From: an uncultured Pirellula sp.
GTDB lineage: Bacteria > Planctomycetota > Planctomycetia > Pirellulales > Pirellulaceae
Direction of reading: 5' to 3'
NCBI GenBank assembly: GCA_903892355.1
Contig: CAITIE010000088.1
Span: forward strand, 1 to 64,000
Length of the DNA: 64,000 nucleotides
The notes under the pieces were generated by a model, which worked only from the letters and a program-made list of their open reading frames with translations, made no database searches and had not been told where the DNA came from. This document shows positions 34,604 through 36,184 of this stretch, piece by piece. The stretch's first letter is position 1. Every line of letters begins with the position of its first letter. The position numbers and the translations under genes were made by a program.

Positions 34604-36184
34604 TTATTCCCCTGCCGAAGTTTCGAACTGTTCGAGTCGGGATGCTACCTCAGACATAGATTCTGGTCTTTTCGTTTTGTCTTTCTCCAACATGGCCATG
34701 ACAAAATTTGACAGAGACTCCGGAATGCTCGCAATCGAAGAGGGTGGGTCTGGAATCCCCGAGACGGTCGGGAATTCATCTCCGTTTTCTGTTTTTGAAA
34801 ATGGCTGTTGGCCGCAAAGCATCCAATACAGGATACAACCCAGACTGAAAATGTCACATCGTACGTCGAGACCCACCTCACCGCGAACTTGTTCCGGGGC
34901 CATGTACGACGGAGTCCCGATGACACCACCGACTCGCGTAATTCCACTGGACTTACTTCCGGCTTTTGGGATTGCTCTCACCAAACCGAAATCCAAAAGT
35001 TTCACTCGGTCCGACGGGGATTCGAGCCAAACATTGCCAGGTTTCAAATCACGATGGATATAATCGATTTTGTGAAGGGCTTGAACTCCATACGCGATCT
35101 CTTTCCCAATCCTGAGAGCCTCTGGGAATGGAATGCTGCCGCCATGACTAAGTCGCTCTTCCAGCGAGATCCCTTGAAGGCACTCCATCACCATAAACGG
35201 TAGATCGTTAATCGTTCCGATATCGTGAACTGTTGCTACCTGGGGACACACGATCGCGACCATCGCTTTGGCTTCGCGAAGAAATCGCAATCGAACCGAC
35301 TCAATGTTGAGTAGCGAAGGGCGTAGTAGTTTAATGGCAACGGTCCGACCGAGTCGTGTGTCTTCCGCTTGATAAACGATCCCCATGCCACCTGCCCCGA
35401 GTAATCTCACGACTCGAAAATGGTTGATCATCGAGATCTGGTTGCTAGCGTTGACGTGTACGAGCAGCTTGATGGCGTTGATGTCCGCTTGGATTGAAGT
35501 GTCGAGAGGTGCATTATTTCCAGCTCCAACTGAAAATTCAAGTTTCTGGGCGTCGTCGACCTTTTCTTGTAGATCTCTAGAATCGATAACCTGCGTGTTT
35601 TCTGAAGATAGTGGCCCATCGGTACCAATCGTATCGTCGTAGGATGCGATCTTTGTAATTTCGAACACACAGTAAGGCGCCCCGTCGAGCATGCACGCAG
35701 TCTTCTCGATGGTGATTACTTCGCGATAATACCTCGCTACTCCGTCGACGATACCTCGCAGCAGACCACACATTTGGCGGTGCGAAGAGTAAATGATCTG
35801 TATCCTATCTTTACCGTCACGGATGCAGTCGAGTACGGGTGGATGGGCGCCTGGGTTGCCGACTCTCACTGCAGAATGGATGATTCCCTCGACGTTTTCA
35901 ATCAAGTCGATCGTACCCCAGTTCTGGGGGAGGCGATTCCGGTAGAGGTTCATCAAATCAGGCGCAATCCCACGACCGATGGTGGTGAGGACTTCTTGCG
36001 TGGGCAGTTCCAGCAATTTCGCCGCGGCACCGACGATCGCTATCGCATCTTCATCGGGGTACGATTTTGCTGGGCTATAGGATTTCCCATCGACACCTGC
36101 TTCCGACGTCAATGATTTCCAGACATCGTTCCCGAATTCTTTTTGGACAAATTTTTGGACGTAGGTAAATACGAGTCCATGCAT
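34604..36184 (-). CDS. H-NOX (haem NO-binding) domain fused to Ser/Thr protein kinase
   Basis: A 526-residue soluble protein. Residues 1-180 form an H-NOX/HNOB domain: start MHGLVFTYVQKFVQKEFG, SYPDED (41-46), haem-ligand His103 in VEGIIHSAV, Pro115-Pro116, and the propionate-binding Y-x-S-x-R as Tyr132-Ser134-Arg136 (YSSHR). These are one residue from the numbering of Thermoanaerobacter H-NOX (His102; Tyr131/Ser133/Arg135). The distal tyrosine of O2-binding members aligns with Leu141, so NO selectivity is predicted. A linker (180-255) precedes a complete Hanks kinase: GAGGMGIVY, Lys285, Glu304, HRDLKPGN (377-384), DFG (398-400) and APE (429-431). No membrane segment or C-terminal extension is present. 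The inferred role is haem/NO control of Ser/Thr phosphorylation. It follows a cyanophycinase-like gene by 141 bases. Confidence 0.9.
   Translation of the reverse strand: MHGLVFTYVQKFVQKEFGNDVWKSLTSEAGVDGKSYSPAKSYPDEDAIAIVGAAAKLLELPTQEVLTTIGRGIAPDLMNLYRNRLPQNWGTIDLIENVEGIIHSAVRVGNPGAHPPVLDCIRDGKDRIQIIYSSHRQMCGLLRGIVDGVARYYREVITIEKTACMLDGAPYCVFEITKIASYDDTIGTDGPLSSENTQVIDSRDLQEKVDDAQKLEFSVGAGNNAPLDTSIQADINAIKLLVHVNASNQISMINHFRVVRLLGAGGMGIVYQAEDTRLGRTVAIKLLRPSLLNIESVRLRFLREAKAMVAIVCPQVATVHDIGTINDLPFMVMECLQGISLEERLSHGGSIPFPEALRIGKEIAYGVQALHKIDYIHRDLKPGNVWLESPSDRVKLLDFGLVRAIPKAGSKSSGITRVGGVIGTPSYMAPEQVRGEVGLDVRCDIFSLGCILYWMLCGQQPFSKTENGDEFPTVSGIPDPPSSIASIPESLSNFVMAMLEKDKTKRPESMSEVASRLEQFETSAGE

Follow-up and report, generated by a model that had tools for sequence, protein, structure and literature searches.

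Bacterial H-NOX domains pass their signal to histidine kinases, cyclic-di-GMP enzymes or chemoreceptors in the systems described by PMC12329717, PMC8846402 and PMC8738867 (the literature on H-NOX and on planctomycete kinases is cited here from portions of its text). One gene in the window, the 64,000-nucleotide stretch of contig CAITIE010000088.1 from an uncultured Pirellula sp. that we analyzed, instead places such a domain at the head of an apparent Ser/Thr kinase, and raises the question of whether the protein is an isolated oddity or a member of a family and, if the latter, what it might sense. Computation finds two domains in one chain, with haem, hinge, thiol and catalytic residues intact, no membrane-like segment, and relatives whose H-NOX parts form one clade.

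An H-NOX Domain and a Hanks-Type Kinase in One Frame

The gene and its parts are as follows.

34604..36184, minus strand: CDS of the H-NOX Ser/Thr kinase (526 amino acids, ATG start, stop codon at 34604-34606)
35645..36184, minus strand: H-NOX (HNOB) domain, residues 1-180 (Pfam HNOB at residues 2-160; PDB H-NOX matches by sequence and fold)
35435..35644, minus strand: linker, residues 181-250 (mostly low confidence in the predicted structure, with a predicted helix at 229-246 before the kinase)
34640..35434, minus strand: PknB-like Hanks Ser/Thr kinase domain, residues 251-515 (Pfam Pkinase at 257-510; PDB PknB at 3.1e-42; catalytic residues)

The initial annotation proposed that an H-NOX domain is joined directly to a Hanks-type kinase, and Pfam matches to both halves bear this out. 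A match of the N-terminal part to HNOB (PF07700) had been set beforehand as a test; it was found with an E-value of 2.2e-31 and 109.4 bits, against a curated cut-off of 25.5. Two further Pfam matches, one to V4R (residues 133-177) and a weak one to MetOD1, extend over its final part. With a profile built from related loci, which had the window protein among its members, the domain scores 214.4 bits, and 1,000 shuffles of the same residues reach 7.8 bits at most. The closest solved H-NOX proteins by sequence are those of S. woodyi (6ocv, 3e-16) and S. oneidensis (2kii, 1.2e-15), the latter being among the best PDB matches by fold as well. When residues 1-180 were modeled from the single sequence (mean pLDDT 70.7), a fold search gave 46 PDB matches at E ≤ 0.001, all of them H-NOX or soluble guanylate cyclase chains (TM 0.60–0.76 by query); a few titles lack such wording, and those entries were found under the H-NOX sequence matches. 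As far as the fold goes, the predicted structure thus agrees with the annotation.

Pkinase matches with an E-value of 1.9e-43 and 149.2 bits (cut-off 31.7), and weaker kinase-like Pfam matches overlap the same region. All the catalytic motifs are intact, as had been claimed, from the Gly loop through K285, E304, HRD (377-379), K381, N384 and DFG (398-400) to E431 of APE. Among PDB structures the kinase part is closest to M. tuberculosis PknB, whose first activation-loop Thr lines up with Thr416. By fold and motifs it would be a Hanks-type Ser/Thr kinase, with phosphotransfer to Ser or Thr predicted. NCBIfam models gave only sub-cut-off matches, the best being the PASTA kinase Stk1/PknB (NF033483), which is confined to the kinase domain and, at 233.9 bits against 450, falls short of assigning the protein to that family. 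No histidine kinase domain, as an HnoK-type output would have, appeared in the Pfam scan of the protein. A full-length model from a 36-sequence alignment (mean pLDDT 74.4, pTM 0.56) has PknB as its best match, with pLDDT below 50 in the linker at residues 183-232 and 234-250.

A Conserved Family in Planctomycetes

The protein had been presented as a single case, with a survey of HNOB plus Pkinase architectures across Planctomycetota suggested as a check. That survey shows it to be a member of a conserved family. In a sample of the host's order, HNOB occurs in 70 of 296 genomes (24 of 122 genera), and with all 76 places fetched, 51 of the 70 have H-NOX and kinase in one frame, a count that includes one genome (G147) with a haem-less copy only and some frames cut by contig ends. 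Two further genomes of the order (G150 and G302) have the fusion interrupted by a frame change or contig end. Within the host genus, 14 of 27 genomes have HNOB: ten are fused, including one (G017) with the gene split over two contigs, and four have short unfused frames only. The host genome itself has a single HNOB match; the kinase part has 46, a number in which some frames are counted as two pieces. A sample of the phylum yielded HNOB in 42 of 392 genomes. At the places examined there, G360 (three copies) is the only genome besides the host with haem-competent fusions, and the fusion in G423 is haem-less; the 14 HNOB places outside the examined set lie in frames of 129–233 amino acids, too small to include a kinase.

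A pattern scan of a genome collection covering 84,980 species returned 43 loci, each from a planctomycete MAG, with patterns that are specific to this subfamily, so that other phyla may hold H-NOX kinases outside them. These loci overlap the genome samples, and the two sets are not independent. We read 41 of the 43: 32 encode complete H-NOX kinases whose catalytic loop has the usual form, three (L131, L162 and L165) are complete with a changed catalytic-loop letter, four (L135, L142, L144 and L146) are cut by contig ends, and one (L132) is interrupted by a frame change. At L129 the frame stops after 187 amino acids near a contig end.

Several relatives have features of their own. G360 is a 12.3-Mb genome of another class of the phylum, and one of its H-NOX kinases (L069, L117 and L118) has a linker of ~280 residues. 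The frame at L081:4470-6662 extends ~230 residues beyond the H-NOX start on the upstream side; this extension, which matches no Pfam family, is probably just open frame. At L082 (G147) the H-NOX frame is broken by a TGA and the kinase frame lies further along, the mark of a decayed or mis-assembled relative.

Haem, Hinge, and Catalytic Residues

Conservation was read from two alignments. The first consists of 36 proteins, namely the window protein and 35 of the 43 pattern-scan loci, chosen as complete frames with a kinase; 34 of the others are 32%–44% identical to the window protein, and one is 95% identical. The second compares 61 fused H-NOX rows with 59 rows without an in-frame kinase, of which two (L111 and L115) are interrupted fusions, leaving 57 unfused rows; duplicates (L001, L116 and L125) and partial domains of fewer than 140 residues (L014, L082, L090, L114 and L124) were left out before counting. 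The haem residues lie as follows.

35876..35878, minus strand: His103, predicted proximal haem ligand (60/61 fused rows, 58/59 other rows)
35777..35791, minus strand: YSSHR (Tyr132, Ser134, Arg136), the YxSxR haem motif (each of the three residues in 60/61 fused rows)

His103, Pro115-Pro116, Tyr132, Ser134, Arg136 and Leu141 all stand where the initial annotation placed them. Pro115 is kept, like His103 and the three motif residues, in 60 of the 61 fused rows, the exception in each case being L119, and Gly70 and Gly144 are kept in all 61. In the first alignment, these seven residues and three cysteines (Cys139, Cys164 and Cys172) are common to all 36 proteins, as are K285, E304, HRD, N384, DFG and E431; K381 is present in 34 of 36. 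Position 416 is Thr in 31 and Ser in five of these complete proteins; a larger, partly incomplete set of 63 rows has Thr in 52, Ser in one, gaps in four and a few other letters.

O2-binding H-NOX proteins have a Tyr in the distal pocket, which in Tt H-NOX we take to be position 140. The window protein has Leu141, and across the 61 fused rows this position is Leu in 57, Met in two, Gly in one, Val in one and Tyr in none. NO binding without O2 binding had been predicted from Leu141. The missing distal Tyr holds family-wide, and a preference for NO over O2 fits the rule given in part of PMC8738867, that a non-polar distal position suits NO rather than O2; both halves of the claim stay predictions, including that the protein would not hold O2 at its haem. 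Gly70 and Gly144 would be the counterparts of the hinge glycines described in sections of PMC7108781 and PMC8738867, the transfer of numbering being ours.

Two kinases, at L114:3580-5277 and L119:2996-4999 (both on the minus strand), have a degenerate H-NOX-like N-terminus without the haem His. HNOB matches L114 at 3.6e-09, over positions 3-78 only, and L119 at 3.3e-11; L119 also bears C-terminal TPR repeats. These proteins may be haem-less descendants that sense something else.

Trees of the Two Domains

The tree built from 120 H-NOX domains groups all 61 fused rows, together with the two interrupted fusions, in a single clade (support 100/99) that includes no further row; L119 sits within it on a very long branch, and its placement is unsure. 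The kinase tree has 24 kinases of H-NOX-linked frames, chosen from 64 such frames and two named ones (L114 included), together with 21 of the 29 other host kinases fetched, eight long-branched ones having been left out. The 24 are not a clade in the best tree. Constraining the H-NOX-linked kinases together is borderline rejected (p-AU 0.041), but is not rejected with the three G360 copies removed (p-AU 0.396). A single origin is thus seen for the H-NOX side, and is less clear for the kinase side and so for the fusion as a whole. It is possible that the kinase was swapped in the G360 lineage, and that the kinases of L069, L117 and L118 come from a different kinase lineage.

Three Cysteines Retained in the Fused Domains

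The cysteines common to the fused proteins went unnoticed in the initial annotation, and their retention is a new observation here.

35768..35770, minus strand: Cys139, predicted zinc/redox ligand (60/61 fused rows; matches Cys139 of S. oneidensis H-NOX, PMC7108781 in part)
35693..35695, minus strand: Cys164, predicted zinc/redox ligand (60/61 fused rows)
35669..35671, minus strand: Cys172, predicted zinc/redox ligand (60/61 fused rows)

All three occur together in 60 of 61 fused rows versus four of 57 unfused planctomycete H-NOX domains (Fisher's exact test, 1.5e-27), an enrichment that counts as one evolutionary event rather than 60, given that the fused rows are one clade. The single fused row without the trio is again L119. 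The unfused domains with the three-Cys site are L061, L113, L120 and L121, in three of which Arg136 is replaced by Asn or His.

The zinc ligands of S. oneidensis H-NOX are Cys139, Cys164, Cys172 and His161, according to the portion of PMC7108781 consulted. The window protein has the three cysteines of the zinc/redox H-NOX proteins (groups 2 and 3 in that portion), but where these have His or Gln as fourth ligand at position 161 it has Lys. In the 61 fused rows the position is Glu in 48, Lys in six, His in three, Gln in three and Ser in one, so that His or Gln is found in six. With Lys in the window protein and Glu in most of its relatives, the fourth position argues against a simple transfer of the zinc/redox site from known H-NOX proteins. 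The cysteines and glycine hinges have both been implicated in the switching of characterized H-NOX proteins (parts of PMC7108781 and PMC12329717). V. cholerae H-NOX is activated by oxidation of the cysteines (PMC7108781, in part); in Caulobacter, thiol oxidation activates H-NOX, which then inhibits the partner kinase, and NO binding does not inhibit it (PMC12329717, in part). Since the Caulobacter site is driven by thiol oxidation and not by NO, the redox alternative, which the initial annotation mentioned beside NO, deserves equal weight.

Genomic Setting and NO Metabolism

Over 19-residue spans, the hydropathy of the window protein peaks at 1.39, which gives no membrane-like segment and would suit a cytosolic gas sensor. 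Values of at least 1.6 are reached by two of 63 fused rows versus 23 of the 29 other kinase frames of the host genome (those being cut at locus ends). The gene lies near genes for a peptidase S51, a zinc metallopeptidase, a sugar transferase and a GNAT acetyltransferase. An operon or family-wide partner gene was considered and rejected, as no neighbor is common to the 44 loci compared (the 43 and the window). Recurrent neighbors, in clusters named from one representative each, are histidyl-tRNA synthetase (19 loci, including the nearer relative L130, where it is ~3 kb away), a DUF4159 protein (18 loci) and an upstream gene without a Pfam match (16 loci); another group of loci has an aldo/keto reductase (six) and an HD-domain gene (five) upstream. 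The window is in none of these clusters. The gene without any Pfam match lies just upstream of the fused gene in 16 of 44 loci, for instance at L155:3683-4852.

No NirK exceeded the cut-off in the 27 genus genomes, weak sub-cut-off matches being confined to G014 and G024, neither of which is the host. The NosZ model also gave nothing over its cut-off in these 27, a weak result, as it found nothing in 14 control genomes either. NO synthase had no match in the host genome. A 28-bit cytochrome d1 match in the host, above the family cut-off, was rejected as NirS, as it covers only model positions 38-169 inside a 1150-amino-acid frame. Of the two COX1-family genes of the host, one codes for a cbb3 subunit I/II (over cut-off) and the other for a CtaD-like aa3 subunit (658 bits versus a cut-off of 671). 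The host genome is a draft (158 contigs, 96.9% completeness), so single absences are not proof. It has no convincing NO source, and NO, if it is the signal, would come from outside.

Elsewhere in the genus, third COX1-family genes in four genomes were considered as candidate NO reductases. Those of G015 and G026 match cbb3 models best, below cut-off, and those of G014 and G021 receive no NCBIfam name at 1e-10. The latter are COX1-family proteins of 745 and 795 amino acids (L200:1-2235 in G014 and L203:622-3006 in G021), possibly quinol NO reductases.

What the Kinase May Sense

The reading that we favor, with moderate confidence, is that of a cytosolic sensor kinase of the one-component kind, whose activity would be set by movement of the H-NOX hinge upon NO binding to the haem, oxidation of the cysteine site, or both. 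The N-terminal domain would bind haem through His103; NO binding there and/or oxidation of the Cys139/Cys164/Cys172 zinc site would be the input, swinging the two H-NOX halves about the Gly70 and Gly144 hinges. This movement would pass via the flexible linker and short helix to the kinase N-lobe, where it would determine whether the kinase dimerizes and phosphorylates first its own activation loop (the Thr416 region) and afterwards target proteins in trans. Haem and zinc occupancy, the ligand, dimerization and signal transfer are the parts that we infer. The signal could activate or inhibit the kinase. H-NOX-NO activates guanylate cyclase. In related systems studied before Caulobacter it inhibits a histidine kinase, according to part of PMC12329717. 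A one-component sensor with Ser/Thr phosphorylation as output was already the interpretation of the initial annotation; the architecture and the intact kinase support it, and its preference for NO gives way to an equal weighting of NO and redox. Several results count against such a switch: position 161 does not retain the fourth zinc ligand, the model is of low confidence in the linker (overall pTM 0.56), there is neither a conserved neighbor gene nor a convincing NO source, and haem residues have been lost in some kinase-linked H-NOX domains (L114 and L119). More tentatively, and falling a little short of an even chance, the domain may read both its haem (NO) and its zinc-thiol site (oxidants) and give Ser/Thr phosphorylation directly, which would make it a new class of one-component sensor.

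Sensors of NO alone or of redox state alone are one-signal versions of the switch just described, and their probabilities overlap with its own. That oxidation of Cys139, Cys164 and Cys172 drives the switch, with the haem secondary as in Caulobacter H-NOX, is rather unlikely as the whole account. The distribution of the trio between fused and other rows speaks for it, as does the host's resemblance to the Caulobacter case (PMC12329717, in part), with oxidases of the cbb3 and aa3-like kinds and without a convincing nitrite reductase; yet the conservation of His103 and YxSxR, which a haem-independent sensor would not need, equals that of the cysteines, and the fourth ligand has drifted. We rate just slightly lower a pure NO sensor kinase, in which the haem alone senses, as in soluble guanylate cyclase, and the cysteines hold a structural zinc. 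The haem motif, the hinges and the non-polar distal position are kept throughout the family, and three-Cys H-NOX proteins of other bacteria also respond to NO (PMC12329717, in part), but the searches for NirK in the genus and for NO synthase and NirS in the host speak against it, and a trio found in so few of the other sampled planctomycete H-NOX domains suggests that zinc is not needed for the fold.

A third possibility takes its logic, by analogy, from HRI, the eukaryotic haem-regulated eIF2alpha kinase: the protein might sense haem availability or haem redox state. H-NOX domains usually hold haem tightly, which with the retained gas-sensing residues makes this improbable, despite a haem domain directly N-terminal to a Ser/Thr kinase and the ability of V. 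cholerae H-NOX to work haem-free (PMC7108781, in part). Degenerate H-NOX–kinase frames do exist, and L114 and L119 lack the haem His; a non-functional fusion or assembly artefact is nevertheless hardly credible, as the same architecture recurs in many assemblies and genera and the haem residues and nearly all catalytic residues are kept in the 36 complete proteins.

Significance and Comparison with Known Systems

Our search of titles and abstract openings in the open-access literature found no report of an H-NOX Ser/Thr kinase among the papers listed, a scope that mostly leaves out subscription journals and so does not prove priority; nor did it find H-NOX paired with Planctomycet or with STYKc. 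A survey of Planctomycetota Ser/Thr kinases (PMC11032199) names 105 accessory domain groups; heme and nitric oxide are absent from its main text, and HNOB may stand in its supplementary tables. The S-helix paper (PMC1592074) names HNOB, with 'threonine kinase' absent from the portion consulted, and the corresponding portion of the Acanthamoeba genome paper (PMC4053784) describes H-NOX proteins not joined to guanylyl cyclases and names no kinase fusion.

The H-NOX Ser/Thr kinase would be a new output for a known sensor family, and a conserved one would add to the outputs of bacterial H-NOX signaling. Being a single chain, it would allow the movement from H-NOX to effector to be studied without a partner complex; as of 2022 no high-resolution structure of H-NOX with a partner existed (PMC8738867, in part). 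The retained cysteines make NO versus redox directly testable by point variants. Planctomycetes are rich in Ser/Thr kinases and would gain one with a predictable kind of input, and a fusion common to many of their genomes could let them answer NO or oxidants by phosphorylating proteins. If true, this would be an NO- or oxidant-to-phosphoprotein route that bypasses two-component and c-di-GMP signaling, in cells without an apparent NO source of their own.

The H-NOX/HnoK systems of Shewanella oneidensis and Vibrio cholerae likewise have the proximal His, the hinge glycines and a zinc site with three cysteines (PMC7108781, in part), but their H-NOX is separate and acts on a histidine kinase, whereas the window protein carries it in one chain with a Hanks Ser/Thr kinase, and their fourth zinc ligand is His or Gln, here Lys161. 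Caulobacter vibrioides, an aerobe not known to denitrify, also has a three-Cys H-NOX, with a separate histidine kinase and His160 as the likely fourth ligand (PMC12329717, in part), in contrast to the fused kinase described here. The H-NOX methyl-accepting chemotaxis proteins of anaerobes are fused to their output as well; Tt H-NOX has a distal Tyr and binds O2 (PMC8738867, in part), where the window protein has Leu141 and a kinase output. In soluble guanylate cyclase beta1, too, H-NOX stands at the N-terminus of a larger enzyme. That protein has a nucleotide cyclase output with PAS-like and helical parts between, whereas here a mostly disordered linker and a kinase follow. PknB-type Hanks kinases share the catalytic domain; PknB itself spans the membrane and carries PASTA repeats outside the cell, and in the planctomycete protein a soluble haem sensor is predicted to be attached instead.
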